Of a stretch of DNA of 45,879 nt, positions 13,029 to 30,007 are shown piece by piece. The notes under the pieces are model-generated. The model was not told the DNA's origin, made no database searches, and saw only the letters and a list, made by a program, of their open reading frames with translations. This DNA comes from Ramlibacter sp. (GTDB taxonomy: Bacteria; Pseudomonadota; Gammaproteobacteria; Burkholderiales; Burkholderiaceae_C), in NCBI GenBank assembly GCA_028292195.1, contig JAQGMU010000558.1, positions 1-45,879 of the forward strand, given 5' to 3'. A program made the translations under genes and the position numbers. Position 1 is the stretch's first letter, and each line of letters begins with the position of its first letter.

Positions 13029-14183
13029 TCAGCCCAGCGCGCGAAAGAAGTCGCGGACGTCGGTGACGATGGCTTGCGGTTCTTCCCAAGCCGCGAAGTG
13101 ACCGCCGCTGGTGTGCTGCCGCCACTGCTTGAGGTTGTAGTAGCGCTGGGCCCAGCGGCGCGGCGCGTTGCATACCTCTTCCGGCAATACCGTAATGCCG
13201 ACGGGAACCTCCACCACCGGCATGCGGCCATGCGCCGGCTTCCAGGGAAGGTGTGCAGCCTCGTAGTAGTAGCGCGCCGACGTGCCGTAGCTCTCCGTCA
13301 CCCAGTAGATCATGATCGTGGTCAGCAGGTCGTCCTTGCTGAAGCGGGTTTCGACGTCACCGTGACAATCACTCCAGCTGCGCTGCTTTTCGACGATCCA
13401 GGATGCCAGTCCCACGGGTGAGTCGTTGAGTGCTGCCGCGATCGTCTGCGGCTTGGTGCTTTGCAGTGCGGAGTAGGCGGACTCCGTTGCGAAGAAATTC
13501 TGCAGGCGGTCCGCCAACCGCGCTTCGTCGGAGTCATAGTCTTCCGGCGCCGGCATGCCGCCGCTGAATAAGTCCAGGGGCAGCATCATCGGAATGTGGA
13601 TGCCCATGACGCGATCGGGATAGCGGTGCCCGACGTCCGCCGTGACCAGCGCACCCCAATCGGCACCGTGCGCGGCAAAACGGGGATAACCCAGCCGCTC
13701 CATGAGCGTCACCCATAGCCCGGAAGTCCGCCAGAAATTCATGCCGGTCTGGCGCAGCGGCGTTGAGAAGCCATAGCCTGGCAACGACGGCACCACGACA
13801 TCGAAGGCGTCGGCAGGATCGCCGCCGTGCGCGCCCGGATCGGTGAGGAGACCGATCACCTTGTGGTACTCCCAGAATGTCCAGGGCCATCCATGCGAGA
13901 GCACCAGTGGTTTCGGATTGGGTCCCTTGCCCCGCACGTGAATGAAGTGGATGGGTACGCCATCAATGTCCATGCGGAACTGCGGAAAGGCGTTGATCGC
14001 GCGCTCCTGCCGTCGCCAGTCGTACCCGTCGATCCAGTAGCCCACCAGTTCCTTGAGGTAGGCGGTGTTGGTGCCGTACTGCCAACCTTCGTTGGCGAAG
14101 TCGTCGGGCCAACGGGTGCGCGTGAGGCGGGCGCGCAGATCGTCGAGCACTTCATCCGGCACATTGACTCGAAAAGCTTCCAT
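13029..14183 (-). CDS. Epoxide hydrolase (EHN + alpha/beta hydrolase), no signal peptide
   Basis: MEAFRVNVPDEVLDDLRARLTRTRWPDDF EHN region; HGWPWTFWEYHKVI; GADWGALVT nucleophile region. Confidence 0.88.
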   Translation of the reverse strand: MEAFRVNVPDEVLDDLRARLTRTRWPDDFANEGWQYGTNTAYLKELVGYWIDGYDWRRQERAINAFPQFRMDIDGVPIHFIHVRGKGPNPKPLVLSHGWPWTFWEYHKVIGLLTDPGAHGGDPADAFDVVVPSLPGYGFSTPLRQTGMNFWRTSGLWVTLMERLGYPRFAAHGADWGALVTADVGHRYPDRVMGIHIPMMLPLDLFSGGMPAPEDYDSDEARLADRLQNFFATESAYSALQSTKPQTIAAALNDSPVGLASWIVEKQRSWSDCHGDVETRFSKDDLLTTIMIYWVTESYGTSARYYYEAAHLPWKPAHGRMPVVEVPVGITVLPEEVCNAPRRWAQRYYNLKQWRQHTSGGHFAAWEEPQAIVTDVRDFFRALG

Positions 14184-14218
14184 TGCGTCTTTCTCCTGTG
14201 ATTCCGGGTGCATCGTGC

Positions 14219-14256
14219 GGGAGCACCACGGACGATGTCTCGTTCGTGGTGCTCCC
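14219..14256 (-). other. Intercistronic hairpin between two epoxide-hydrolase genes
   Basis: Perfect 12-bp inverted repeat GGGAGCACCACG (14219-14230)/CGTGGTGCTCCC (14245-14256), 14-nt loop, no T tract. Confidence 0.7.
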
Positions 14257-14264
14257 TCCATCTG

Positions 14265-15581
14265 CTAGGCGCGCAGCGACCGGAAGCCCGCGCGAACCTC
14301 TTTCGAGAAGATCTCGGGTTGCTCCCAGGCAGCGAAGTGGCCGCCCTGGTCCACCTTGTTGTAATGAACCAGGTTGGGATATGCCCGCTCCGCCCAACTC
14401 CGCGGCAGAGGGTAGAGCTCGTCGGGAAAGACGGTCACGGCAACCGGAATCTTGACTCCCCTGACGCCGAAGAACGACTGCTTGTTCTCCCAGTACAGCC
14501 GGCCCGAGGAGACCGCCGTGCCAGTCAACCACGTGAGCGTGACGTTATCCAGGATGTCGTCTCGCGTGAGGCCGGCGGACTGCCCCGCGAAGACCCGGGA
14601 GATCAGCCGGTAGCTGCGTTGGTCGTGGTCGAGGAAATAGGCCGCCAGGCCGACCGGCGAATCGGCCAGACCGTACATGGTCTGCGGGCGCAACCCGAGC
14701 TGGAACCCGTAGCCAATCCCCTTCTGGTAAACGAATTGCACGCGCTCATACGCGAGCTTCTCTTCGGCCGAGAGATTGGAAGGCGCCGGCGCACCTGAGA
14801 ACGCCGCCTTGTCGATGTCCTCCGGGATCGCATTTGGCATGTTGGTATGGATGCCGATCAATTCCGGCGCTGCCTGCGCACCCATCAGCTCGGTGATGAC
14901 TGCCCCCCAATCGCCACCTTGCGCGACGAACTTCGTGTACCCCAGGCGCTTCATGAGCACGACCCAGGCGCGCGCGATGTGCTGGGGATCCCAGCCGGTT
15001 GCGCTCGGCTTGCCCGAGAAGCCGTAGCCGGGCATCGACGGAATCACCAGATGGAACGCATCCGAAGCACTGCCGCCATGCGCCGTGGGGTTGGTCAGGG
15101 GATCGATGATCTTCATCTGCTCGAGGATGGATCCGGGCCAACCGTGCGTGACGATGAGCGGCAAGGCGTTCTCGTGTTTCGAACGGACGTGGAGGAAGTG
15201 GATGTCCAGCCCATCGATCTCGGTGACGAACTGCGGGTAGGAGTTCAGCCTGGCCTCGACCTTGCGCCAGTCGTAGTCGGTTCCCCAGTAACGCGCGAGT
15301 GCCTGGGTCGTGGCGAGCTGCACGCCTTGCGAATCATCCGTGACCGTTTCCCGCTCGGGCCATCGGGTCGCGTTGATGCGTCGGCGCAGTTCGGTGAGAT
15401 CCGACTCCGGGAAATTCACGTGAAACGGACGAATGGCAACCCCGTCGGTGCCCTTCTGTTGTGCGACTTGAGTCATGGCGTGAGACCTTTGTGAGAAAGC
15501 GAGAAGACCTAGGGTGCATGCAGCCATCGCTGCAGTTCCGTAGAAGAGACGACGACGGCCGAGATCGGGCGTCTGTTGCAT
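14265..15581 (-). CDS. Exported epoxide hydrolase (Tat-like signal)
   Basis: MQQTPDLGRRRLFYGTAAMAACTLGLLAFSQRSHA; FHVNFPESDLTELRRRINATRWPERE; HGWPGSILEQMK; AQGGDWGAVIT. Confidence 0.88.
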   Translation of the reverse strand: MQQTPDLGRRRLFYGTAAMAACTLGLLAFSQRSHAMTQVAQQKGTDGVAIRPFHVNFPESDLTELRRRINATRWPERETVTDDSQGVQLATTQALARYWGTDYDWRKVEARLNSYPQFVTEIDGLDIHFLHVRSKHENALPLIVTHGWPGSILEQMKIIDPLTNPTAHGGSASDAFHLVIPSMPGYGFSGKPSATGWDPQHIARAWVVLMKRLGYTKFVAQGGDWGAVITELMGAQAAPELIGIHTNMPNAIPEDIDKAAFSGAPAPSNLSAEEKLAYERVQFVYQKGIGYGFQLGLRPQTMYGLADSPVGLAAYFLDHDQRSYRLISRVFAGQSAGLTRDDILDNVTLTWLTGTAVSSGRLYWENKQSFFGVRGVKIPVAVTVFPDELYPLPRSWAERAYPNLVHYNKVDQGGHFAAWEQPEIFSKEVRAGFRSLRA

Positions 15582-15808
15582 GGCGAGCTCCTTGGCAACC
15601 GGTGGTTGCGTTCGGGTGTGACTGCAGGACGTTCACAACCCGGAAGTGAGGATGCCGCGCAGCGAGGTTGGCTTGTATTGCGACGTGGTCTCGCGGTTCG
15701 GGCTCTTGGTATCGAAGCGAACGGTCGCCGCATGCGAATCGAGGGCGATCTACATCCAGCGGGCCGGCAGCCTGCCCGCCTGGTTGGGCGCACTGAACCT
15801 TGGTTCAG
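15567..15808 (-). promoter_or_regulatory. Promoter module copy A (58-bp element + 44-bp box + leader)
   Basis: 58-bp element 15751-15808 ending CTGAACCTTGGTTCAG (15793-15808); 44-bp box 15666-15709; ATG complement at 15579-15581. Confidence 0.7.
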
Positions 15809-16784
15809 CGAAGACCTGGCTTTGAAGCGTGGAGCGGAACGCCGGCGCTTCATCGGCAGCGAGGCGCAGTGTCCGCGTCGCGCGGACCTCGTGCTTGGTC
15901 CCCAAGGTCACGACCAGGTGCTCGATCAACTTGCGCACCGACATCGGCTGGTTGCGGCGCGAGTTGTAGCTGAGCTGCAGCGAAAGCGGCGCGACGCGCC
16001 ATCCTGACAGAATGCGTTGCAGCAGTCCCTGGGCCTCTGCCGCTTGCGCAAGGAACGCGGGCAGCATCACGATGCCTGCACCATGAACCGCCGCATCGGC
16101 GAGCACCTCGATCTGGTTAGCGTGCAATGCCCCCTTCACACTCAACGAACAGGCATCACCGAGTTCCAGTTGCTGGAACGACCAGATCGCCCCCGTGCCT
16201 GCGATCCTCGAGGTGAGGCAGTCGTGCTGGGCGAGTTCCGAAGGATGAGCCGGCTCGCCCTTCTGCGCCAAATAGGCTGGTGCGGCGTAGATTCCGACCT
16301 CCGCACTGGTCAGCGTGCGGACGACTTGCATGGAGCGCAGGTCCTCGGGCAGGCACAACGCCAGGTCCACTTCGTCCAGGACTGCGTTGACGCTTCCTTC
16401 GCACAGTTGCAGATCGACCTGCACTTGTGGATAGCGAGCGCGAAAGGTGGCGAGTGCTGGCCCCAGGTAGTGACGCGCGAACAGTGCCGGCGCAGCCATT
16501 CGGATCACGCCAGCCGGCTCGCTGGCGCTGAGACGCGCGATGGACGCGAGTTCTTCGTAGGATTCCAGCAGGCCTTCCGCGCGGCGCAGGACGTCCTCGC
16601 CGGCGGCGGTGAGTGCGATGCGCCGGGTGGTGCGATGTAGCAGCCGCACACCCAGCAGCGTCTCGAGGTCCTGGACCGTGCGGCTGGCCACCGGGCACGA
16701 GATATCGAGGGCCGATGCGCCGGCGACGAAGCTGCCGTTGTCGGCAACCGCCTTGAACACCGACAGGGCTTTGAGTCGATCCAT
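15750..16784 (-). CDS. LysR-family transcriptional regulator
   Basis: MDRLKALSVFKAVADNGSFVAGASALDISCPVASRTVQDLETLLGVRLLHRTTRRIALT HTH. Confidence 0.9.
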   Translation of the reverse strand: MDRLKALSVFKAVADNGSFVAGASALDISCPVASRTVQDLETLLGVRLLHRTTRRIALTAAGEDVLRRAEGLLESYEELASIARLSASEPAGVIRMAAPALFARHYLGPALATFRARYPQVQVDLQLCEGSVNAVLDEVDLALCLPEDLRSMQVVRTLTSAEVGIYAAPAYLAQKGEPAHPSELAQHDCLTSRIAGTGAIWSFQQLELGDACSLSVKGALHANQIEVLADAAVHGAGIVMLPAFLAQAAEAQGLLQRILSGWRVAPLSLQLSYNSRRNQPMSVRKLIEHLVVTLGTKHEVRATRTLRLAADEAPAFRSTLQSQVFAEPRFSAPNQAGRLPARWM

Positions 16785-16806
16785 GTCCGCTCTCCGTCAA
16801 GATGGG

Positions 16807-17271
16807 TCAGTTGGCAAGAGGCTGCAGCAAATGGCAGGCGGTACTCCACCCGTTGACAACGCCGGCCAGCACGCGGGCGGCGAACGCTATCGCACGCGGG
16901 TTCAGCAACAGGCGCTCCACTTGCGGGCTGCGCGCGGCTCCGGCCAGGCACCAGAAGCAGAAGTGCTCGCAGTTGTTGCGGAGCAGGTCGTAGGCGTCTT
17001 CACCCAGGCGAGAGCACGCACGCGCGGCGACTTCGATGCCGGAATACGCCAAGTTCGCCTCAACGACGACACGTAGCGGGTGGTTATTGCTGAATTCGGC
17101 GAGGCTGACCTTGGCGACGGGGCCGCGACGCAGCGACGTAGACAGCCCGCGGTAGTGAACGACCTGCCCCTCTCCCACGTAGATGCCGTGATGCGTGTAC
17201 CAGCGTCTCGGCGTCACGACGTGCGCACCTAGAGGGAAGTCGACTGCATTCGCCGTCGGCGTCTGTTGCAT
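16807..17271 (-). CDS. LRAT-domain (NlpC/P60-superfamily) protein
   Basis: GAHVVTPRRWYTHHGIYVGEGQVVHYRG and NNCEHFCFWC: conserved LRAT His and Cys motifs; start MQQTPTANAVDF. Confidence 0.82.
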   Translation of the reverse strand: MQQTPTANAVDFPLGAHVVTPRRWYTHHGIYVGEGQVVHYRGLSTSLRRGPVAKVSLAEFSNNHPLRVVVEANLAYSGIEVAARACSRLGEDAYDLLRNNCEHFCFWCLAGAARSPQVERLLLNPRAIAFAARVLAGVVNGWSTACHLLQPLAN

Positions 17272-17494
17272 GGCGAACTCCTCGGCAACCAGTGGCTGCA
17301 TTCGGCGTGAATCAATCGTTCACACACCGGGAGTGAGCATGCGACGCGCGGCGGTTGGCTTGTATTGCGCCGTGGGCTATCGGTTCGGCCTCCTGGTATA
17401 GCCGCGCGGGTGTCCGCCGGCAAAACGCAGGCAACCTTCAACCGGCGGCGCGATAAACCGTGCAGATGGTTGGGGGCCCTGAACCTTGGTTCAG
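17257..17494 (-). promoter_or_regulatory. Promoter module copy B
   Basis: 58-bp element 17437-17494 ending CTGAACCTTGGTTCAG (17479-17494); 44-bp box 17353-17396; ATG complement at 17269-17271. Confidence 0.7.
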
Positions 17495-20400
17495 GAAAGC
17501 GCTGGAAGGGTGAATGCGAAAACAGCGCCCCGAGGCTGCCGGGCGTCAGCCCACAGTTTGCCGCCGTGGGTATTGATGATGGAGCGGCAGATCGGCAACC
17601 CGATCCCGACTCCGTGGGCCTTGGTAGTGTAGAAGGATTCGAACACCCGCTCGCGATTCTCCAGCGCGATGCCGGGCCCCGAGTCCGCCACCGTGACGAG
17701 CAGCTCCTGGGGAGCGCCGAATCCGCTGCAGATCAGCAGGTCCCGCGCCTCGGCGTCGACCTCGGACATGGCCTCGATGGCATTGAGGATCAGGTTCAGC
17801 ATCACCTGTTGCAGTTGAACCCGATCTCCGCGAATCGGTGAAAGACCTTCGGCGAGCCGGGTCTCCACCAGGACACGATTCTTCGACAGTTCGCCTTGCG
17901 CCAGGGCAATCACGTCCTCGATGGCGTCGTTCAGGTCAACGCTTTCCTCGCGGGGCGGCACTTTCCTGACCTGGTCGCGGATTCGGCTAATGATGCCGCT
18001 GGCCCGGTAGGTGTCTTTGACCACGCACCCGAGGGCCTCATGGACTTCCTCCAGATCCGGCGGATCACGGGCGAGAAAGCGCAGAGCCGCGTGCGCGTTG
18101 TTGCGTGCCGCACCAATCGGCTGGTTGACTTCATGCGCGATGGAAGCCGCGAGCTGCCCCAAGGTCACCAAGCGATTCGCGTGGGCCAGTTCCATCTGCA
18201 TTTCGCGCATCGCCTCCGAAGCGCGCTTGCGCTCCGTCAGGTCGAGCACGAAGGCGACGCCCTCGTTGCCGCCTCCCTCGAATGCGGCTACGCCGATCAG
18301 TACCGGCACGCGGCTGCCATCCTTCCGGAAGTATTCCTTCTCGTACGGCTGCAGGCTGCCCGTCACCTTGAGTTCGGGCACGAGCTGCCGATCTTCCCGC
18401 TCGCGCCACTCCGGCGGCGTCAGGTCCGTCCAGCGCAGGCTACCCACAGCGAGGTCCTGCCGCTCGTATCCGACCAGCTGCAGGAACGCGTCGTTGGCGT
18501 CGAGGATCCGCCCCGTGAGGTCCCAGATGAAGATACCTATGATGTTGGCATCCACTAGGCGCCGGATCCTGGCCTCGCGTTCGGCAAGATCCCGGTACAG
18601 GCGCGCGTTCTCGATGGAGATGGCCGCCTCCGATGCCAGCAGCTTGAGCACCGCCATTCGGGCGGGGGTGAATGCGTGGGCCGTCAGCTTGTTCTCCAGG
18701 TACAGCATCCCCATCAGTCGGGCCTGCTTGAGTATCGGCAGGCAGACCAGTGAGCGGGCGCCGTGCTGGCGAATGTAGTCATCGGCGGGGAACGAGTTCT
18801 CGCGCGAGCCGTCATGCAGCAGCACGGCCTCCTTGGTACGAAGGACGTAGCGGAAGACGGACTCCGAGAGATCCGCAGCCGTGATGTTCGCCTGCCGCAG
18901 ATGGACTTCCACCGTGCCCGCGCGGGTCGTGGCTTCTGCTTCTATTCGATATTCGTCCTCGCGGGGAAGAATCAGCAAGCCGCGTTCGGCGCCAGCATGC
19001 TCGATGGCCGTACGCATGAGCGTGTCGATCAGCTTCTCCAGCACGATCTCGCCCGATAGAGCCTCGGAGACTTTCATCACGGTCGCCAGGTCGAGGCCCT
19101 CCACAGAAGTCTGTATCGTGGTGCCGGCCTCCGGGAGGGGCTTGTCGGCCCCGAGGTACGGATGCAACTGCTCAAGCTGCCGGACCTTGCCATCGGCACC
19201 CCAACGGAGATAGCAGTTCCGCGCATCCCGCAGGTAGGTCGCCGCAATTTTCTCGAAACCCCGCTCCGAGTAGAAGCGCGCGGCTCGCTCGTTGGCGATT
19301 CCCTCATTGTGGACAAGGTCGTGTGTGTGAGCCGAACGCACCGCTTTCTCGAAGAGGTCTTGCGCTTCGAGCACACGCCCTTCGATCCTCGCGATTTCCG
19401 CCGCGACGATCGCTGCCCGGTTCTCGAAGGTGACAGGATTGTGGCCGGCCCACATTTCGAGCTGCTTGCGATGGCCGGCCAGGGCTTCCAGGTGCAAGCG
19501 CTTCTCATCCTCAGGTGCGGACTCGCAAGCTGCGGCGCGCGCCAGCGCGGCGTAATAATGCAAGTCCGCGACTTCGAAGTTCGCCGCCGCGCGCCAGACA
19601 AGCCGCTGCGCATTCAGCGCAGCCTCGATCGCGGATGAGTGGTCGCCCGCAAGATATCGAGCCTGCAATTTACGAACCCAATAGTAGAACTCGGGGAGCC
19701 CTAGATTTGCATCGCTGGCCAGGTGGCGTTCGGCGTCACGCTCGCTGTATCCATCGTGATCCAGAAGCCCGAAAGCCGAATTCAACCCGCGAAGTGTTCG
19801 CGTCAGTCCGATCTGTGCGCTGCAAGTGGCTTGGACGAGGCCCATCTGGACCTTGCTGGCGAAGGCAAGGCCGTGCTCGGCTTCCTCCTGTACTTTGGCA
19901 AGAGCCTCTCCCGCAGCCAATCTGATCGTGACCGACCGCTCCAGGCTATAGCCAGCAAAGGCGACCGCGCCGGCCCGATTCGCGACATCGGACGCGCGGC
20001 GCACCAGTTCGAGCGCGCTGGCCGGGTGCTTTGTCCACGGCAGGACGAGCGCCCCCACACACAGATAGGTCTGCGCTTGATAGCGAGTCAGACCGCGCTT
20101 TTCGACGAGGTCATACCCCAATTGCCCGAACCTGAATCCGTCCCCGTAGTTGTTGAAGCGCGGTCCGGCGAAAAAGGCCATCCAGACATATCCGAAAGCC
20201 GAGGCATCGCAGTTTCCATGTTCGAGGCTGAGACCGACGAGACGGCAGACAACGAGCGAAGCCAAGTGCTCATCGAAGAAAAAGGATGTTGGCGCCGCTT
20301 CCAGAAACACGTTGATGGTGTCCAGGATCTCGGGGTCCGTTACCAGTGGCAGGTCCAGGAGGTCCTCTATCTGACGGTCGCCAAGCAGCGTTCTGGTTCG

Positions 20401-22995
20401 TTCGTACTCACGCGACGCCACTTCCCAGGTGGGATGAATGGCCCAGACGGTGCCTTCACGGCGCAGCCAGTCCAGGAACACGGCCAGTCCTTGCTCGCAT
20501 TTATCCCAGCCGGTGTAAAGCGCCATTCGCAGACGCATCACGGCAATGTAGTCATGGCGGCAGGTGGCGCGTTCGGCCAGGCGTGAGAGGCGGATTTCCG
20601 CGGCGAACCTGTCTGCAGTCAGCAACTCGCATTCGCCCATCAGGCACTCGATGGAAAACAGGAGCGCGTAGTTGCGCTCCCAGGTTTTGTCGGTGAGCAA
20701 CGCGCGGCCGGCGCGCAAGTAGTTGAGGGCCGATTCGAACGCCGTCGAGGCCTTGGCGCGCTGGCCCGCGATCAGGTTCAGATTCGCGACCCGCTCCCGC
20801 TCCTCCGGCGAGTCTATGAGATGGGCGCCCCGGTTCAGCTGGTTGACGATTTCGAATATGGCCTCTTCCAGCTTTCCGGGGGGCGTGTGCTCGGCCAGGA
20901 ACGTGCCCAGGCGCAGATGAGTCGCGGCGCGCAGCTCGGATCCGGCCAACGAATATGCGGCTTCCTGCACGCGGTCATGGAGGAAGCGATACCGGCTGTT
21001 CGCGCGGTAGATCAAGCCGGCGCGAACCGCCTCCCACAGGTTGTCGTGCATTTCGCCGGGGGATAGCTGGCAGGCCATCTGCAACATGTCGATTTCGGCT
21101 CTTTTTCCCAGGCACGCGAACTGATGCAGCGTCGCCTGCGTTACCAAGGGGAGGCGGCTCAACTTCTCGATCATCAGCTCGACGACATTGTCGGTATAGC
21201 CCCTGGCATGGATGAGGTCCAGGTCCCATGACCATCGCCCTTTGTCGTAGTCGAAGGCGAGCAGTCCTTCGTCAGCCAACTCCGATATGAACTGAATCGC
21301 GAAGAAGGGATTGCCATTCGTCTTCTCGTGGATCAACTCCGCCAATGGCGCGACGCGCTCTGGCTCGCAGCGAAGTGAGTCGGCCAGCAATTGCTCCAAA
21401 TGAACCCGAGCCAGCCGCGCGAGCACGATTTCCTGCAATACCGCCCCGCGCTCGTGGACCGACTTCAACTTGCGCATCAAGGGGTGCGCAGCGCTGACTT
21501 CATTGTCCCGATAAGCGCCGATTAGCAGGAGGTGCTTCAGATCGGAACGCATCACCAGGTCCTCGAGCAGATCGAGCGTGGCCCCGTCCAGCCATTGCAG
21601 GTCGTCCAGGAAGAGCGCGAGCGGATGCTCGGGCCGTGCGAAGACGCCGATGAATCGTCCGATGACCAGCTGGAAGCGCCTCTGGGCATCCTGCGCTGCA
21701 AGCTCGGGCACCGCCGGTTGCTCCCCGATGATGTGTTTCAGTTCCGGCACGAGCTCGGTCATCAGCAGTCCATTTGGATCCAGCGCCTCGCGAAGTGCCT
21801 CGCGCCATCGGCACAAGTCTTCTTCGTTCTTGCCCAGGAGCGGACGCACCAATCCACGAAGCGCCTGCGCCAGCGTGGCGTATGGAATGTCTCGCTGGTA
21901 CTGATCGAACTTCCCCGAAGCGAACAATCCGCGAGGAGGAACCAGCGGTTTCTGGAGTTCGTTGACGACAGCGGACTTGCCTATGCCCGAATAGCCGGAG
22001 ACGAGTACCAGTTCGCACCTGCCCCCGGCGACAATACGGTCGAACGCGGCGAGCAGCGTGTCGACCTCCGCCCCACGCCCGTACAGCTTCTCGGGGATCA
22101 TCAGGCCGGGTGGCGCGTCATGATCGCCCAGCGCGAAATCGTGAATGCACCCCTCCTCGCTCCACTCGCAGAGGCAGCGCCGGAGATCGCGCTCGACGCC
22201 CGCGGCCGACTGATAGCGTTCCTCGACGGTCTTGGAAAGCATCTTCAGGGTGAGCGCGGAAATGGCGACGGGAATGCTCGCCAGGCGCTCGCTGGGACTT
22301 GCTGGCTGTCGCGCAATGTGGCAATGAACCCACTCCATCGGGTCGGCAGCCGTGAAGGGAAGCCGGCCGGTCAGCATTTCATAGAACGTGACTCCGAGCG
22401 AGTACAGGTCGCTTCGGGAATCGATGGAACGGTTCACTCTCCCGGTTTGCTCCGGTGCCATGTAGGCGAGCGTCCCTGCTATGAACTCGGGCGGTTCAGG
22501 AGACTGCCGCTCACGCGGCGCGCGGGAAGCAATTCCAAAGCCGGTCAGCCAGACCCGCTCCGTCGCGGAATCCACGATCACGTTGGCGGGCTTGAGGTCC
22601 TTGTGAATGAGGCCGCATCCGTGAAGTCGGCCGATGGCGCTTGACATTGCCACCGCGAGGCGCAGGAATCGTCCGACTTCCATGGGTTGATGAATCAGCC
22701 GGTCCAGGGGCTCACCGCCTGCGAAATCGACAACCAGCAGCGTGCGTCCGGCCTCGCGCACGAGTTGCGCGGGCCGCAATGCCCAAGCGGCGTCAAGGTA
22801 GTCCCTGAGTTCGTACTCGTGAGCGAGACGGTCCGTGCTCCCTTGTGTCGAGGCCTCAACGCCCGAGTTCACGGAGACGAAGGCGTGCCGATCGCCATCG
22901 TCACCACTGCTGCGCAGCTTCCAGAAGGCACGCCCGGCGTCTTCCCACAGCAAGTCCGCGGGACCGCTTGCCGCACCAGCACTCAAACCAATCAT
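17491..22995 (-). CDS. Multidomain sensor: Ser/Thr kinase-like - AAA ATPase - GAF - PAS - histidine kinase
   Basis: HKDLKPANVIV...MAPEQTGR; Walker A SGYSGIGKS; Walker B ALFLDDLQWLD; GAF VCLPILKQARLMGMLYLEN; PAS VDANIIGIFIWDLTGRILDANDAF; HisKA AASIAHEVNQPIGAARNNA; HATPase ADSGPGIALENRERVFESFYTTK. Confidence 0.93.
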   Translation of the reverse strand: MIGLSAGAASGPADLLWEDAGRAFWKLRSSGDDGDRHAFVSVNSGVEASTQGSTDRLAHEYELRDYLDAAWALRPAQLVREAGRTLLVVDFAGGEPLDRLIHQPMEVGRFLRLAVAMSSAIGRLHGCGLIHKDLKPANVIVDSATERVWLTGFGIASRAPRERQSPEPPEFIAGTLAYMAPEQTGRVNRSIDSRSDLYSLGVTFYEMLTGRLPFTAADPMEWVHCHIARQPASPSERLASIPVAISALTLKMLSKTVEERYQSAAGVERDLRRCLCEWSEEGCIHDFALGDHDAPPGLMIPEKLYGRGAEVDTLLAAFDRIVAGGRCELVLVSGYSGIGKSAVVNELQKPLVPPRGLFASGKFDQYQRDIPYATLAQALRGLVRPLLGKNEEDLCRWREALREALDPNGLLMTELVPELKHIIGEQPAVPELAAQDAQRRFQLVIGRFIGVFARPEHPLALFLDDLQWLDGATLDLLEDLVMRSDLKHLLLIGAYRDNEVSAAHPLMRKLKSVHERGAVLQEIVLARLARVHLEQLLADSLRCEPERVAPLAELIHEKTNGNPFFAIQFISELADEGLLAFDYDKGRWSWDLDLIHARGYTDNVVELMIEKLSRLPLVTQATLHQFACLGKRAEIDMLQMACQLSPGEMHDNLWEAVRAGLIYRANSRYRFLHDRVQEAAYSLAGSELRAATHLRLGTFLAEHTPPGKLEEAIFEIVNQLNRGAHLIDSPEERERVANLNLIAGQRAKASTAFESALNYLRAGRALLTDKTWERNYALLFSIECLMGECELLTADRFAAEIRLSRLAERATCRHDYIAVMRLRMALYTGWDKCEQGLAVFLDWLRREGTVWAIHPTWEVASREYERTRTLLGDRQIEDLLDLPLVTDPEILDTINVFLEAAPTSFFFDEHLASLVVCRLVGLSLEHGNCDASAFGYVWMAFFAGPRFNNYGDGFRFGQLGYDLVEKRGLTRYQAQTYLCVGALVLPWTKHPASALELVRRASDVANRAGAVAFAGYSLERSVTIRLAAGEALAKVQEEAEHGLAFASKVQMGLVQATCSAQIGLTRTLRGLNSAFGLLDHDGYSERDAERHLASDANLGLPEFYYWVRKLQARYLAGDHSSAIEAALNAQRLVWRAAANFEVADLHYYAALARAAACESAPEDEKRLHLEALAGHRKQLEMWAGHNPVTFENRAAIVAAEIARIEGRVLEAQDLFEKAVRSAHTHDLVHNEGIANERAARFYSERGFEKIAATYLRDARNCYLRWGADGKVRQLEQLHPYLGADKPLPEAGTTIQTSVEGLDLATVMKVSEALSGEIVLEKLIDTLMRTAIEHAGAERGLLILPREDEYRIEAEATTRAGTVEVHLRQANITAADLSESVFRYVLRTKEAVLLHDGSRENSFPADDYIRQHGARSLVCLPILKQARLMGMLYLENKLTAHAFTPARMAVLKLLASEAAISIENARLYRDLAEREARIRRLVDANIIGIFIWDLTGRILDANDAFLQLVGYERQDLAVGSLRWTDLTPPEWREREDRQLVPELKVTGSLQPYEKEYFRKDGSRVPVLIGVAAFEGGGNEGVAFVLDLTERKRASEAMREMQMELAHANRLVTLGQLAASIAHEVNQPIGAARNNAHAALRFLARDPPDLEEVHEALGCVVKDTYRASGIISRIRDQVRKVPPREESVDLNDAIEDVIALAQGELSKNRVLVETRLAEGLSPIRGDRVQLQQVMLNLILNAIEAMSEVDAEARDLLICSGFGAPQELLVTVADSGPGIALENRERVFESFYTTKAHGVGIGLPICRSIINTHGGKLWADARQPRGAVFAFTLPALS

Positions 22996-23435
22996 GGCAT
23001 GCACCCAAGGGTGCCGCGGCCGCGGCTGACAGCGCAACGAAGGCACCCGATCAGGACGGCCTCATCCACTGGCTTGGGAAGGTAGCACCCGACACCCATA
23101 TTCAGGATGTGCTCCTTGCCCTGGTCCTCGGGGTGCGCAGTGATCAGGATCGTCGGGATCGCGTATCCCGTCTGGAGCAGATGCCGGTACAGTTCGACAC
23201 CTGTCATCGCCGGCATTTGAACGTCGGCAACCAGGCAGGCCGTAGCGCGGACCTGGGTGGATGCGAGGAACTCGGCGGCGGACGGGAACACTGCGACGGT
23301 ATAGCCATGCGACTTGAGCAGTCTTCGCATGGAGTCGCGAAACGGCGCGTCGTCGTCGACGACAGAGATCAGGGTTAGCTCGGGCAAGACAGCCTCCGGG
23401 GCGACACGCGGCCACGACAAAGTCCGACAGTTCAA
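22992..23435 (-). CDS. Receiver-domain protein (CheY-like, no output domain)
   Basis: ISVVDDDAPFRDSMRRLLKSHGY...ACLVADVQMPAMTGVELYRHL...ILITAHPEDQG...YLPKPVDEAVL; stop overlaps the kinase start as ATGA. Confidence 0.88.
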   Translation of the reverse strand: MNCRTLSWPRVAPEAVLPELTLISVVDDDAPFRDSMRRLLKSHGYTVAVFPSAAEFLASTQVRATACLVADVQMPAMTGVELYRHLLQTGYAIPTILITAHPEDQGKEHILNMGVGCYLPKPVDEAVLIGCLRCAVSRGRGTLGCMP

Positions 23436-23485
23436 CCGAGGACCGCTCTTGTCGCCAAGAATACCCTCGTAGCCACCCAGGATCT

Positions 23486-23501
23486 CTAAGCCTTGGTTTA
23501 G
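23486..23501. promoter_or_regulatory. Degenerate version of the island palindrome
   Basis: CTAAGCCTTGGTTTAG: same CC-TT-GG core as CTGAACCTTGGTTCAG, 51 bp upstream of the receiver/HK operon. Confidence 0.4.
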
Positions 23502-23507
23502 GCGTGA

Positions 23508-24254
23508 CTACGGGCGCTTGGAGTTCTTCGGCACAAGGTTGAGCTGGTCCGCCATTCGACAAAGTTCCGGGAGCGATGCGGCGCCGATCTTGTGCATCAT
23601 GTTGCTCCGGTGAACCTTCACGGTGGTCTCGGTGATGCCCATGTCGCCGCCAATCTGCTTGTTCAGCCGACCCTGCACCACCTGGATCAGAATGCTGCGC
23701 TCGCGCGGCGTCAGTTCTTCGAAGCGAGCCCGCAGCGCGTTGAGGGATTGTTCGCTCGCGCGGCGGGCGCGGTCTCGCGCAAGGCCCACGTTCACGGCGT
23801 CCAGCAGATCCTGATCCCGGAACGGCTTCGTCAGGAACTCAATGGCCCCCGCCTTCATCGCCTGGACGGTCATCGGAATGTCACCATGTCCGGTGATGAA
23901 GACGATCGGTAGCGTCGCGCCTGCCGCCGCAAGGTCGCGCTGGAATTCCAACCCACTCCGTCCCGGCATTCTTACGTCGAGAACCAGGCATGTGGGGCGA
24001 TCGGGCGGCTCGGATTTCACGTACTCGGCTATGGCCGCAAACGTCAGCGCCTGCAGACCGGCCGATCGCAAGAGTCGCTCGAGCGATTCGCGAAATTCCG
24101 TGTCGTCGTCGATGATCACAACGCAGGCATCCGAGTCCGGAAGCGCCTTCGTCGGCGATTGAAGTTCCACCAGGAGCGCTCCAAACCGTGCCAGTTGCCG
24201 CAATGCGGTCCGAACTCTATCGTGCACGCGTCCGGGCTGGCAGGCAATGACCAT
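23508..24254 (-). CDS. FixJ/NarL-type response regulator (receiver + LuxR HTH)
   Basis: VVIIDDDTEFRESLERLL, VLDVRMPGRSGLEFQRDL, FLTKPFRDQDLLDAV, LTPRERSILIQVVQGRLNKQIGGDMGITETTVKVHRSNMMHKI. Confidence 0.92.
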   Translation of the reverse strand: MVIACQPGRVHDRVRTALRQLARFGALLVELQSPTKALPDSDACVVIIDDDTEFRESLERLLRSAGLQALTFAAIAEYVKSEPPDRPTCLVLDVRMPGRSGLEFQRDLAAAGATLPIVFITGHGDIPMTVQAMKAGAIEFLTKPFRDQDLLDAVNVGLARDRARRASEQSLNALRARFEELTPRERSILIQVVQGRLNKQIGGDMGITETTVKVHRSNMMHKIGAASLPELCRMADQLNLVPKNSKRP

Positions 24255-24338
24255 CGGTGCGTCATGGCTTCTGTGGCAGCTGGGCGACGAACGGCCGGCT
24301 CGACGATCGAGGAGATGGCGAGCCGGCAGCGCGGCCAA

Positions 24339-24806
24339 CTACGCTTCGACGGCGTCCACGACCACGACGTTGGTGGCGACGTCGATATTGCCGTGAACGG
24401 CCTTCGAGTAAGGGCAAACGGCGTGCGCCGCGTGGGCGATGGCCTGGGCCACGTCGAGTGCAACGCCCGGCATGCGGACGTCGATTCGCGCCTGGATGAA
24501 GTACGCATTGCCAGTCATGCCGAGATCCACTTCGATTTCGACGGACAGGTCGGGGGGGAGGGTCACCTTCTTCTCCTTGGCCGCGAGGCCAAGCGCACCG
24601 GTGTAGCACGCCGACCAGGCGCCGGCGAACAACTGCTCAGCGGTCGGATGCATCTGGATGGCGGTGAACACGATCTCATTGCCGGCTTTGCCGGGCGTCG
24701 AGAGCTGGATGTCGATGCGGTCGTCGCCTCGACGGGCGCCGTCGCGGCGGCTGGCCGTCGTGCGGGTCTTGCCCGTGAGAAGAACGGTTTGGATTTTGGT
24801 GGTCAT
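24339..24806 (-). CDS. Organic hydroperoxide resistance protein (Ohr/OsmC family)
   Basis: LFAGAWSACYTGAL and AHAVCPYSKAVHGN: the two Ohr redox Cys motifs. Confidence 0.9.
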   Translation of the reverse strand: MTTKIQTVLLTGKTRTTASRRDGARRGDDRIDIQLSTPGKAGNEIVFTAIQMHPTAEQLFAGAWSACYTGALGLAAKEKKVTLPPDLSVEIEVDLGMTGNAYFIQARIDVRMPGVALDVAQAIAHAAHAVCPYSKAVHGNIDVATNVVVVDAVEA

Positions 24807-24912
24807 TGCGGAGTCCTTTCGGTTGGCCCGGTTGTTGAGGCGCCGGTGCGCGGGTGCGCCGTACGCCATTGGCAACGCGATAGGGCGTGGATCGCGCTGC
24901 CGGGAATGATTC

Positions 24913-24938
24913 GAACGGGTCAGTGCCTTGACCCGTTC
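24913..24938 (-). terminator. Hairpin spanning the stop codon of the 103-aa gene
   Basis: Perfect 10-bp inverted repeat GAACGGGTCA/TGACCCGTTC with 6-nt loop. Confidence 0.5.
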
Positions 24939-25231
24939 TCGAGCGTGATGACTACCGGGAGCGCGTAGTCGCGGCCCACCGTGCTGCGAGCGAAAAAGTA
25001 GTTGTTGCGAGCGCGTTCACTGAGTTCGTCGAGCTGGACCACTCCACGGTGATCGCATGGAAAGGAGAGCGCACGGCCCGAGTCGAACAGCGACGCGAAG
25101 AACAGCTCGTGCGAAACGCGAGGCGTCGTCGAGGGATCGAGGGCGTCGTGCATCGATCGCGCCTGGCATGCAGCGGCTTGCGCTGTGGATCCGAACGCGA
25201 GGCGGTGGCCGAAATTGGGCGTCTGTTGCAT
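24920..25231 (-). CDS. Small conserved hypothetical protein (103 aa) of the MQQTP gene set
   Basis: MQQTPNFGHRLAFG...VSHELFFASLFDSGRALSFPCDHRGVVQLDELSERARNNYFFARSTVGRDY; sits behind promoter module C. Confidence 0.7.
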   Translation of the reverse strand: MQQTPNFGHRLAFGSTAQAAACQARSMHDALDPSTTPRVSHELFFASLFDSGRALSFPCDHRGVVQLDELSERARNNYFFARSTVGRDYALPVVITLENGSRH

Positions 25232-25458
25232 GGCGAACTCCTTGGCAGCCGGCTGGCTGCGTTCGTGGTGACCGGAAGTGGCCACAACCTGGGAGTGAGC
25301 ATGCGAGGCGGGCCGGTTGGCTTGTATTGCGCAGTGGTCGATCGGTTCGACCACTTGGATGCGTGAACGCTGGACTGCCGCACCTGAAGCGCAGGCCGTC
25401 CGCAACCGGCGGGCCGAGAGACTGCGCACTAGGTTGGGTGCACTGAACCTTTGTTCAG
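25217..25458 (-). promoter_or_regulatory. Promoter module copy C
   Basis: 58-bp element 25401-25458 ending CTGAACCTTTGTTCAG (one mismatch); 44-bp box 25315-25358; ATG complement at 25229-25231. Confidence 0.7.
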
Positions 25459-25530
25459 ACCTGGCTGCCTGGGAGCGCTGCGTGAATGGATTGTTGTGAG
25501 GCCGGCAAGACAGCCTTCTGCGCCGCGACC

Positions 25531-25559
25531 TTTTTCTCGATGGCTCCTTTGCCTAATCT
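25531..25559 (+). promoter_or_regulatory. Putative promoter of DUF4148 gene 1
   Basis: TTTTTC - 17 bp - TAATCT, identical spacing and sequence to the copy at 26685-26713. Confidence 0.5.
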
Positions 25560-25648
25560 CAAGCCATCGCGGAGCCGCCAAGCAATGTTCCTCGATACGG
25601 GCACCGCAATCGCGGCACTCGTCTTATCCACCATCGAAAGGAAAGCAT

Positions 25649-26089
25649 ATGAACCGCATCATCGTCCTCGTTGCCCTCGCCATCACGTCGCTGTCCGGGG
25701 TCGCCTTCGCCGGCACCGGGCTTGCTGGTGACATCACCATCGAGACGGAGCCCTTCGTCGCCACGAAATCGCGCGAGCAAGTCAAGGCCGAACTGGCAGA
25801 CGCAATTCGCACGGGGGACATCCTCGCCCACGGGGAGTCCTCCTACCAGTTGAATGAAGTCAATCCGAACCGGTACCCTCCGGCTTACATGGCCGCCGGC
25901 AAGACGCGCGAACAGGTGAAGGCGGAACTCGCGGAAGCGATCCGTACCGGCGACATCCTTGCCGGCGGCGAGTCGTCGCTCAAGCTGAATGAGCTGTATC
26001 CCTGGACCTACCAGGGCGTGGACCGCACGCTGGCCGGCGACGGCCTGCGTCGACTGGCGCAGCGGAGGATCTTTCCCACGACCAACTGA
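25649..26089 (+). CDS. DUF4148-domain exported protein with two internal repeats
   Basis: MNRIIVLVALAITSLSGVAFA signal; (K)TREQVKAELAEAIRTGDILAGGESSLKLNELYP repeated twice. Confidence 0.85.
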   Translation: MNRIIVLVALAITSLSGVAFAGTGLAGDITIETEPFVATKSREQVKAELADAIRTGDILAHGESSYQLNEVNPNRYPPAYMAAGKTREQVKAELAEAIRTGDILAGGESSLKLNELYPWTYQGVDRTLAGDGLRRLAQRRIFPTTN

Positions 26090-26426: not shown

Positions 26427-26543
26427 ACGCTGGCACGCCTGGCCAGCGAAGTAGCCGTTGTTCCATGAGCCCCTTTGAAGTGATGCGAAGTTCAGGCGCC
26501 GAGGCTTGCGCGCGGACTTTGGGCATCGGAACGGCATCCAGCA

Positions 26544-26601
26544 TTCAACCAGCGACCCGAGAGACGACGCACTGGCTTTAGCGCACTGAACCTTGGCTTT
26601 A
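26544..26601. promoter_or_regulatory. Fourth copy of the 58-bp element, without the 44-bp box
   Basis: TTCAACC-N35-CTGAACCTTGGCTTTA; aligns without gaps to copies A-C. Confidence 0.6.
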
Positions 26602-26684
26602 GGCAAGCAGTCGACCAATGCTCCTTGACGTGCCGCGGGACGAAATGTTGCGAATCCCGAAAGGCAGCCTTCTGTGTCACGACC

Positions 26685-26713
26685 TTTTTCTCGCGACTCC
26701 CCCCACGTAATCT
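26685..26713 (+). promoter_or_regulatory. Putative promoter of DUF4148 gene 2
   Basis: TTTTTC - 17 bp - TAATCT, conserved with the upstream paralog. Confidence 0.5.
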
Positions 26714-26804
26714 CAAGTCCGTCGCGGAGCCGTCAAGCCAAAGTTTCTCGATACGAACGCCGCGATCGCGGCGCTCGTTCCATCCACCATCGAAAGGAAT
26801 GCAA

Positions 26805-27173
26805 ATGAACCGTATCACTGCCCTCGTCGCCGTCGCCGTCACTTCCCTGGCCGGTGGCGCCTTTGCCGGCACTGGCCTTGCGGGCGACATCACCGTCGAG
26901 ACGGAGCCCTTTGTCTCCACGCTGTCCCGCGCCGAAATCCGGGCAACGCTGGATGGCTTCCAGAAGTCCGGCGCCAACCCCTGGGCAGACGGCTACGACC
27001 AACTCGCTGGTTTCGTGGGCAGCGAAACTCGCGCAGAGGTGACGGCCGAATACGTTGTCAACCGCGCCGTCGTGGCCGCCCTGACAGGCGAAGACAGCGG
27101 TTCGCAGTACTTCGCGGAAGGTGTCATCACCCGTCACGCCGTCCGCATCGCCGGCGACGGTTTCAAGCGATAA
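26805..27173 (+). CDS. DUF4148-like exported protein, paralog of the upstream gene
   Basis: MNRITALVAVAVTSLAGGAFAGTGLAGDITVETEPFVSTLSRAEIRATL; near-identical N-terminus to 25649-26089. Confidence 0.8.
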   Translation: MNRITALVAVAVTSLAGGAFAGTGLAGDITVETEPFVSTLSRAEIRATLDGFQKSGANPWADGYDQLAGFVGSETRAEVTAEYVVNRAVVAALTGEDSGSQYFAEGVITRHAVRIAGDGFKR

Positions 27174-27206: not shown

Positions 27207-28520
27207 ATGTGCCTTTCCCGCTGGTCTTCTTCTCATCGAGTGCTCGCCGCCTCGCTCCTGTTCATCGCCGCCGCGGCGGGCATGCCCCAGTTGGCAAGCG
27301 CTGCAGATGCGGAGCAAGGCACCTCGATTCGACCTTTTAAGGTCAAGGTGCCTGAATCCGAACTCATGGAGCTCCGCAATCGGCTGGGCGCAACCCGGTG
27401 GCCCGACAGGGAAACCGTGGGTGACCCCTCACAGGGCGCTCAGCTCGCCAAGCTGCAGGACCTGGTGCGCTACTGGGGCACCGAATACGACTGGCGCAAG
27501 GCTGAGGTGAAGCTGAATGCGCTGCCGATGTACGTCACGACGATCGATGGAGTGGACGTCCAATTCATCCATGTCCGCTCACGCCATGCGAACGCGTTGC
27601 CCTTGATCATCACTCACGGGTGGCCTGGCTCCATCATCGAGCAACTGAAGATTGTCGATCCGCTGGTGAATCCCACTGCGCATGGCGGCCGTGCGGAGGA
27701 TGCCTTCGACGTGGTCATCCCGTCGCTTCCTGGCTATGGCTTTTCAGGCAAGCCCGTGGACACCGGCTGGGGCCCCGACCGGATCGGATCGGCCTGGGCC
27801 GTTCTGATGCAGCGACTGGGCTATTCGCGGTATGTTGCGCAGGGCGGTGACTGGGGCTCGCCCGTTGCGCAAGCCATGGGTCGGCAAGCACCTCCGGGAC
27901 TTCTCGGTATCCACGTCAACCTGCCTGCGGCAGTTCCGGGTGAGCTGGTTCCATTGATCGGCGCGGGCGCGCCGCCGCCGCCAGGCCTGTCCGATAAGGA
28001 GCGTGCGACCTTCGAGGCTCTGAAGGCATTCAACAAGATGGGGAATCTGGCCTACGTCACCATGCTGGGGGCCCGCCCACAGGCTGTCGGCTACGGTCTC
28101 ACAGACTCGCCGGCCGGACTCGCCGGGTTCATGCTCGTGCACCCTGGCTTTGCCAAGTGGAGCTATGGCTCGAACCCGACCCAGTCACCCACGCGCGATG
28201 ATGTGCTCGACAACTTTACGCTGTACTGGTTGACGAACAGCGCCACTTCGGCCGCGCGCCTGTACTGGGAAGGGGCGAGTCGCGGCGTCACCAACTCGGC
28301 CGCCCAGCGAACGAACGAGATTTCCGTTCCGGTTGCAGTGACATCGTTTCCCGATGAGGTGTATCAGCCTCCAGAGAGCTGGGCCCGAAAAGCTTTCCGT
28401 AACCTCATCTACTTTCACGAAGCCGAAAGAGGAGGGCACTTCGCCGCTTGGGAGGAGCCGGAAATTTTCGCAGCAGAGTTGCGTTCCGCTTTCAGCTCGC
28501 TGCGCGACGCGCAGCGGTGA
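27207..28520 (+). CDS. Exported epoxide hydrolase
   Basis: Signal VLAASLLFIAAAAGMPQLASA; FKVKVPESELMELRNRLGATRWPDRE; HGWPGSIIEQLKI; AQGGDWGSPVA. Confidence 0.88.
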   Translation: MCLSRWSSSHRVLAASLLFIAAAAGMPQLASAADAEQGTSIRPFKVKVPESELMELRNRLGATRWPDRETVGDPSQGAQLAKLQDLVRYWGTEYDWRKAEVKLNALPMYVTTIDGVDVQFIHVRSRHANALPLIITHGWPGSIIEQLKIVDPLVNPTAHGGRAEDAFDVVIPSLPGYGFSGKPVDTGWGPDRIGSAWAVLMQRLGYSRYVAQGGDWGSPVAQAMGRQAPPGLLGIHVNLPAAVPGELVPLIGAGAPPPPGLSDKERATFEALKAFNKMGNLAYVTMLGARPQAVGYGLTDSPAGLAGFMLVHPGFAKWSYGSNPTQSPTRDDVLDNFTLYWLTNSATSAARLYWEGASRGVTNSAAQRTNEISVPVAVTSFPDEVYQPPESWARKAFRNLIYFHEAERGGHFAAWEEPEIFAAELRSAFSSLRDAQR

Positions 28521-28996: not shown

Positions 28997-30007
28997 ATGC
29001 CAGCAAACCAAACCGTCAGTCGTCGCACGTTCCTTGGCACTACCGCGATGACCCTGGCCGTGGGCCAACTCTTCGTGGCAGGCAGCGCAGCGGCGCAGGG
29101 CTCCAGCACGACGCGCTTCGGAACCATTAAGCAAGTTCACGCCGGCGTGCTCGACGTAGGTTACGTGGAAATGGGGCCGGCCGACGGGGTCCCCGTCATC
29201 TTGCTGCATGGCTGGCCGTACGATATCCACAGCTTCGCGGAAGTCGCCCCCATCCTGGCCGCGGCGCGGTGTCGCGTGCTGCTCCCTTTCCTGCGGGGCT
29301 TTGGCTCAACTCGGTTTCTTTCCGATATGAGTGCACGCAATGGGCAGCCGTCCGCGCTCGCCGTGGACACGGTCGACTTCATGGACGCGCTCCGAATACC
29401 CAGTGCAGTCATCGCAGGCTTCGATTGGGGCGCGCGGACCGCCAACATCGTGGCGGCGCTCTGGCCGGAGCGCTGCAGCGCGCTCGTTTCCGTCAGCGGA
29501 TACCTGATCGGAAGCCAGGAGGCTGGCCGGGCGCCCTTGCCTCCGGGCGCGGAGCATGACTGGTGGTACCAGTACTATTTCGCCACAGAGCGAGGCCGAG
29601 CTGGCTACGAGCGGTATCGCCGGGATTTTGCCAAGCTGATCTGGCGACTCGGTTCGCCGAAGTGGAGTTTTGACGACGCGACATTCGACCGCAGCGCTGC
29701 GGCGCTGGACAACCCAGACCAGGTTGACATCGCGATTCACAACTACCGGTGGCGTCTTTCTCTCGCTGCCGGCGAAGCGAGGTATGACGCACTGGAAGCC
29801 CGACTCGCGCGGCTCCCGGCGGTCGCGGTGCCGACGATCACCATGGAAGGCGACGCGAATGGTGCACCTCATCCCGACCCAGTTGTGTACGCGAAGAAGT
29901 TTTCCGGTCCGTATTCGCACCGGCTCGTCGCGGGTGGCATAGGCCACAATTTGCCGCAAGAGGCGCCCGAAGCTTTTGCGAAGGCAGTGATCGATTTGGC
30001 CAGATAA
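28997..30007 (+). CDS. Tat-exported alpha/beta hydrolase
   Basis: SRRTFLGTTAMTLAVGQLFVAGSAAA Tat signal; LLHGWPYDIHSFAEVAP; AGFDWGARTANIVA. Confidence 0.88.
   Translation: MPANQTVSRRTFLGTTAMTLAVGQLFVAGSAAAQGSSTTRFGTIKQVHAGVLDVGYVEMGPADGVPVILLHGWPYDIHSFAEVAPILAAARCRVLLPFLRGFGSTRFLSDMSARNGQPSALAVDTVDFMDALRIPSAVIAGFDWGARTANIVAALWPERCSALVSVSGYLIGSQEAGRAPLPPGAEHDWWYQYYFATERGRAGYERYRRDFAKLIWRLGSPKWSFDDATFDRSAAALDNPDQVDIAIHNYRWRLSLAAGEARYDALEARLARLPAVAVPTITMEGDANGAPHPDPVVYAKKFSGPYSHRLVAGGIGHNLPQEAPEAFAKAVIDLAR

Follow-up and report, generated by a model that had tools for sequence, protein, structure and literature searches.

In a 45,879-nt stretch of Ramlibacter sp. DNA (assembly GCA_028292195.1, contig JAQGMU010000558.1; hereafter the window), a region of ~240 bp, here called the module, occurs three times upstream of genes for an epoxide hydrolase (EH), an LRAT-domain protein and a 103-amino-acid orphan protein. 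The first-pass annotation had called these three genes unrelated, and domain searches confirm what it said each of them is, but "unrelated" captures only part of the picture, as they head units of one cluster built around a two-component system and syntenic in other genera. The cluster, from its upstream to its downstream end, is as follows, with the modules located by repeat search, BLAST and alignment and the protein-coding genes, apart from the orphan, assigned by domain search.

25217-25458, minus strand: module 3, preceding the orphan gene and Ohr/OsmC
24920-25231, minus strand: orphan gene (103 amino acids), preceding Ohr/OsmC
24339-24875, minus strand: OsmC-like peroxiredoxin that passes the Ohr-subfamily cut-off, true start probably ~24806
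23508-24338, minus strand: RR1, a FixJ-like response regulator (RR; Response_reg plus GerE/LuxR helix-turn-helix), putative binder of the 7-2-7 repeat described below
22992-23435, minus strand: RR2, a receiver-only response regulator
17491-23046, minus strand: sensor of 1851 amino acids, Pkinase-AAA_16-GAF-PAS-HisKA-HATPase (Ser/Thr plus histidine kinase)
17257-17494, minus strand: module 2, flanked by the sensor-kinase stop codon and LRAT
16807-17271, minus strand: LRAT-domain protein, start MQQTP
15750-16784, minus strand: LysR-type regulator, its open reading frame entering module 1 by ~19 codons (15750-15808)
15567-15808, minus strand: module 1, putative promoter-leader upstream of EH1
14265-15581, minus strand: EH1, epoxide hydrolase (EHN plus alpha/beta hydrolase) with a Tat-like signal peptide by inspection
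13029-14261, minus strand: EH2, a second epoxide hydrolase, sharing the EH1 operon

When the module upstream of EH1 was used as a BLAST query against the window's own genome, a 5.5-Mb draft of 692 contigs that is 82% complete, the two other modules were retrieved at E = 2.0e-36 (75% identity) and E = 1.3e-34 (74%), a similarity far beyond chance, and no fourth full module was found there, the next match being 22 bases long (E = 0.0145). Alignment bears out the proposed layout of a 58-bp element, spacer, box, spacer and ATG: reading outward from the gene, the ATG is followed by ~82-85 bp, a central box at CGCAATACAAGCCAACC, a further ~83-85 bp and the distal element, which contains a palindrome. 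The central boxes were placed by alignment and a 17-mer scan.

15666-15682, minus strand: central box CGCAATACAAGCCAACC of module 1
17353-17369, minus strand: central box of module 2
25315-25331, minus strand: central box of module 3

Starting at the palindrome, the copies are homologous as far as the first codons (ATGCAACAGACGCC), and the homology stops there. The one exception is the orphan, which opens with a short EH-like signal-peptide stretch: its N-terminus (MQQTPnfGhRlaFgsTAqaAAC) resembles the EH1 signal peptide. The orphan may be a fusion created by module duplication. Within the module, orthologues compared across five genomes show a mean pairwise identity of 85-87% in the distal element, 74-84% in the central box and 79-87% over the 3' ~85 bp that end at the ATG. 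The sole weaker segment, at 67-69%, lies between palindrome and central box, so that the first-pass description of strong boxes and start region separated by weaker sequence fits this upstream interval and fails for the 3' ~85 bp, which is conserved throughout. The motifs CCCAACC, GCCAACC and GGTTG rank among the most conserved columns of the alignment, and AACC/GGTT half-site cores are enriched ~3-5-fold across the modules. An upstream open reading frame encoding MLTPGL was considered and discarded, its ATG being replaced by ATC in W_EH and VG_LRAT on inspection of the alignment.

Scanning the GTDB genome set with the 17-mer CGCAATACAAGCCAACC returned, besides chance matches, Cupriavidus necator A5-1, Cupriavidus sp. 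LEh25 and Variovorax ginsengisoli with 2-3 places each, and whole-module searches then gave exactly three copies in each of these genomes. A further genome of the genus Variovorax (G573) carries two copies, and one divergent copy is present in G285, which belongs to another family and was identified by way of its RR1 orthologue. Short fragments aside, no module was present in 36 genomes of the same genus or 398 genomes of the order (the window's own excluded), nor in the other 58 Cupriavidus or ~100 other Variovorax-genus genomes, and no plasmid homologue of the module was found. RR1 orthologues are as rare as the module; the cluster is therefore sporadic among the genomes searched, which suggests spread by horizontal transfer. 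The common gene order is module-(orphan)-Ohr/OsmC-RR1-RR2-giant kinase-module-LRAT-module-EH1-EH2. LysR is an addition of the window, between LRAT and module 1, G573 is without LRAT, and in G285 RR1 is inverted and no Ohr/OsmC or LRAT match lies within the stretch examined. One other Variovorax-genus genome (G523, L080:1485-1525, minus strand) has, away from any such cluster, a lone 40-bp fragment that combines the palindrome, CCCAACC and sequence resembling the kinase tail; it may be what is left of a lost cluster. Literature searches returned no description of this cluster or module.

Between genomes, EH and LRAT modules share 73-83% identity with their orthologues, compared with 40-79% at four-fold degenerate sites of the adjacent kinase and EH genes in the same genome pairs (40-64% in pairs involving the window); for the window and G573 the module stands at 75% and the kinase four-fold sites at 40%. 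These values support the view that the modules are under selection, with all copies retained. Within the window the copies are 70-73% alike, less than the 76-80% they share with their Cupriavidus counterparts (W_EH and CN_EH, 80%; W_ORP and CN_LRAT, 77%; W_LRAT and LE_LRAT, 77%). The copies are therefore old and independently maintained, and concerted evolution within the window is not supported, as identity there falls below that between genomes.

The distal box of the first-pass annotation is present and can be refined: every module opens with a 7-2-7 inverted repeat or a near variant of it, and an additional stand-alone copy lies in the regulator operon.

15793-15808, minus strand: CTGAACC-AA-GGTTCAG of module 1, putative RR1 operator
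17479-17494, minus strand: CTGAACC-AA-GGTTCAG of module 2, putative RR1 operator that overlaps the kinase stop codon
25443-25458, minus strand: CTGAACA-AA-GGTTCAG of module 3 (one mismatch), putative RR1 operator
23486-23501, minus strand: stand-alone CTAAACC-AA-GGCTTAG between RR1 and RR2

The stand-alone 16-mer is near-invariant and occupies the same position in 6 of 6 clusters, on the inverted strand in the rearranged G285. The window thus has four 7-2-7 sites, and each other cluster has 2-4. Scanning whole genomes of 4.6-9.7 Mb for CTRAACC-NN-GGTTYAG with at most one mismatch recovered only 2-7 sites per genome, with the cluster accounting for 4/5 in the window's genome and for 4/7, 2/2, 4/5, 3/5 and 2/2 in the others. 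NarL dimers bind 7-2-7 inverted repeats, and NarL shares its helix-turn-helix family with RR1 (PMC7419079). Because of this NarL-type layout and the matching type of DNA-binding domain, RR1 is the putative binder, and the best available interpretation, by analogy, is that the repeat serves as the operator of the cluster's FixJ-like RR1.

Footprints of duplication adjoin the modules. In three Cupriavidus copies (CN_EH, CN_OSM and LE_OSM) the 60-100 bp 5' of the palindrome are remnants of the 3' end of the kinase gene, scoring 70, 148 and 64, respectively, against shuffled maxima of 34-38, which shows that the module was spread by segmental duplication. At the intact locus the kinase stop codon overlaps the palindrome, and the simplest history would be that the module arose behind the kinase gene and was then copied, with kinase sequence, before EH and OsmC. 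A tree of 14 modules gives no resolved branching and hence no order of duplications. With these remnants, with constraint above that of four-fold sites and with a single locus, the suggestion of a locally spread regulon cassette largely holds.

Several side observations concern the same neighborhood. A fourth copy of the module in the window, a degenerate half, was found by repeat search at 26523-26596 (minus strand), within a tandem duplication of 25380-25788 and 26523-26944 (71-81% identity, spacing 1143-1156); duplication of a segment comprising the 5' half of module 3 and a divergent DUF4148 start accounts for this half-module and for two DUF4148 paralogues. The LysR C-terminus is encoded by duplicated module sequence, as its reading frame runs ~19 codons into module 1. 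Domain and family searches gave no family match for the 103-amino-acid orphan; a 53% relative sits at the same place in G573, and relatives also occur on Variovorax and Methylibium plasmids, making it a small family. Four epoxide-hydrolase or alpha/beta-hydrolase genes lie within 17 kb (13029-15581, minus strand; 27207-28520 and 28997-30007, plus strand), among which EH1 and the gene at 27207 are paralogues with 71% DNA identity over 530 bp.

The 3' third of the module led to a revision of its description as a promoter alone, as the predicted fold and substitution pattern suggest that these ~85 nt probably serve no less as a structured leader than as a promoter. RNAalifold applied to the 11 complete copies predicts a three-way junction at the module 3' end, and a covariance model gives the window's copies, all of them members of its training set, the following scores.

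15575-15660, minus strand: predicted three-way-junction leader of EH1, pairing the Shine-Dalgarno (SD) sequence and AUG, 98.2 bits
17265-17347, minus strand: predicted three-way-junction leader of LRAT, 89.6 bits
25225-25309, minus strand: predicted three-way-junction leader of the orphan, 82.5 bits

In the predicted basal helix GCAU and ACUCC pair with AUGC (containing the start codon) and GGAGU (the SD), respectively, while the predicted P2 consists of CGGGUUGUGA/UCACACCCG and the predicted P3 of GCAACC/GGUUGC. Each of the 11 complete copies is able to form this structure, with 94.6% of pair cells standard, and single-copy folds resemble the junction in most copies (shuffle z-scores -1.0 to -3.5). 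Copies that deviate often retain a helix through multiple changes, as in P2 of G573 (GGCUGUGAG/CUCACAGCC), P2 of the window's LRAT copy and P3 of its orphan copy (GCAGCC/GGCUGC). The substitution rate is 0.059 at paired positions, SD and AUG excluded, versus 0.151 at unpaired ones (Fisher p = 3.7e-5, related sequences being counted as independent), a pattern that moderately supports a fold pairing SD and AUG. The covariance model finds cluster copies only, in seven genomes, including the non-training G285 copy at 28.1 bits. At its gathering threshold Rfam reports only two tRNAs in the window and no match to the module, and below threshold its highest-scoring match to a C. necator module reaches 15.3 bits where 50 are required and is not meaningful.

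Taken together, these data lead us to favor, with a probability of roughly 0.6, a reading in which the modules are promoter-leaders for the transcription units of one stress/detoxification cluster, activated by RR1, carrying an SD/AUG-pairing RNA and derived by segmental duplication. A signal that, judging from the target enzymes, might be organic hydroperoxides or epoxides would be perceived by the giant sensor kinase, which would phosphorylate RR1. RR1 dimers would then occupy the 7-2-7 repeat with which each module opens and switch on the transcription units orphan-Ohr-RR1, LRAT-LysR and EH1-EH2, and binding at the stand-alone repeat between RR1 and RR2 would provide autoregulation. In the transcripts, the basal helix of the leader junction would pair the ribosome-binding site and AUG, so that translation is dampened or conditioned. 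The modules would have arisen by segmental duplication of the kinase 3' end with the module downstream of it, the copies being kept by selection.

A number of observations weigh against this reading. Palindrome and ATG are ~220 bp apart, and the aligned modules show no clear sigma-70 site, two candidates (TCGAAC-N18-TACAAG and TACAAG-N17-CATGCT) both being weak and neither convincing, so that the module is a promoter by inference. Covariation is weak, with shuffles matching the observed score in 55 of 500 and 81 of 500 cases, and is not significant because the sequences are too alike. Pair retention moves from p = 0.0024 to 0.07 under the observed transition bias, in a test that, like the substitution test, treats related sequences as independent. 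Single-sequence folds of the G285 and OsmC-type copies do not give the junction, and in LEh25 and V. ginsengisoli the OsmC copy is shortened at the 3' end; the junction is therefore not essential for the OsmC gene in these two genomes. In rhizobia, four further weak sites near homologues of RR1 (57-63% identity) are only suggestive. Six sites were found at up to 2 mismatches versus 1.0 expected, two of the six are one duplicate and most lie far from RR1, and a site ~90-280 bp after RR1 occurs only in Sinorhizobium chiapasense and, with 3 mismatches, in Bradyrhizobium. On Sinorhizobium and Bradyrhizobium plasmids, GTAAAyCTArGTTTAG is located behind the RR1 homologue (62-63%; L116:12728-12743 and L117:12912-12927), before or near a FUSC efflux operon.

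A stronger form of the promoter-leader reading, in which a FixJ-type operator and an undescribed junction leader sequestering SD and start are copied as one unit that co-controls transcription and translation, is a tentative proposal that we regard as possible. Somewhat more doubtful is an explanation at the level of DNA only, according to which the module is a long multi-site promoter or enhancer with several response-regulator half-sites and the helices are by-products of dyads (GCAACC..GGTTGC) and conserved starts. The enrichment of AACC/GGTT cores over the entire module, the place of CCCAACC, GCCAACC and GGTTG among its most conserved columns and the weak covariation all agree with such an enhancer; however, the loop of the 3' dyad varies from 2 to 5 nt, in contrast to the 7-2-7 sites with their constant 2-bp spacer, the strand opposite SD and AUG is conserved to the same degree as the helices, and the RR1/RR2 stand-alone site exists without the remaining module.

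The identity of the binding protein could also be questioned, since a LysR gene sits between modules 1 and 2 and LysR proteins bind dyads. LysR dyads have T-N11-A spacing, which the even 7-2-7 dyad of the modules does not show; moreover, the stand-alone site is located in the response-regulator operon, and tblastn finds no LysR orthologue in the LRAT-EH1 interval of C. necator, LEh25 and V. ginsengisoli although the modules are kept there. With its gene not conserved alongside the modules, LysR was rejected as cognate regulator in place of RR1 and is a very improbable binder. Insertion of a mobile repeat upstream of several genes, resembling a miniature inverted-repeat transposable element or a repetitive extragenic palindrome, would account for the multiple copies and for the solo fragment in G523, but each genome has 2-3 copies, all in the cluster, rather than many dispersed ones with defined ends, the palindrome is at a single end, three copies carry the flanking kinase-gene tail, neither terminal inverted repeats nor target-site duplications were seen, and none is on plasmids; on copy number and flanks we reject this origin, which has next to nothing in its favor. 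Equally far-fetched is the notion that the copies have no special function and are homogenized by recent duplication or gene conversion: the kinase-tail remnants do record past recombination between copies, but the window's copies are 70-73% identical to each other and 77-80% identical to Cupriavidus copies, and orthologous modules are more conserved than four-fold sites.

Comparison with characterized systems places the promoter-leader reading among familiar arrangements while setting it apart from each. As in NarL/FixJ regulons (in Escherichia coli NarL, ogt and yeaR), inverted 7-base elements with a 2-bp spacer stand upstream of several units and the cluster encodes a FixJ-like GerE-domain response regulator; unlike in the NarL regulon, the heptamer CTGAACC is not the NarL consensus, the site is far from the ATG, sites are essentially limited to one cluster and the whole ~240-bp region is repeated instead of the operator alone. 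FixL/FixJ provides the best NCBIfam matches, FixJ for RR1 (198 bits) and FixL for the kinase C-terminus (189 bits), both below the equivalog cut-offs (255 and 850, respectively), and differs in that the sensor here is a Ser/Thr kinase-AAA-GAF-PAS-histidine kinase and the presumed targets are Ohr, epoxide hydrolases and LRAT. Promoter propagation and the duplication of regulatory regions are known in bacteria, and the modules likewise represent a cis-regulatory region copied before other genes; in contrast to that precedent, copying was local, the kinase 3' end was carried along and the copies are syntenic across genera. The predicted leader of ~90 nt, with a helix pairing SD and start codon, resembles the SD-sequestering leaders of riboswitches and RNA thermometers and differs from them in having no Rfam match and a P2 loop that is not conserved.

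The locus is a clear case of an entire ~240-bp control region that was copied within a cluster and whose copies have each been preserved in at least five genomes. For an orphan signaling system, consisting of a giant kinase and two response regulators, it supplies a candidate operator and candidate targets, namely Ohr, LRAT and the epoxide hydrolases, and its leader is a candidate for a new RNA that controls translation. Local regulons in which a promoter-leader has been duplicated are a known kind of arrangement, found here in an unusual form in distantly related soil bacteria.

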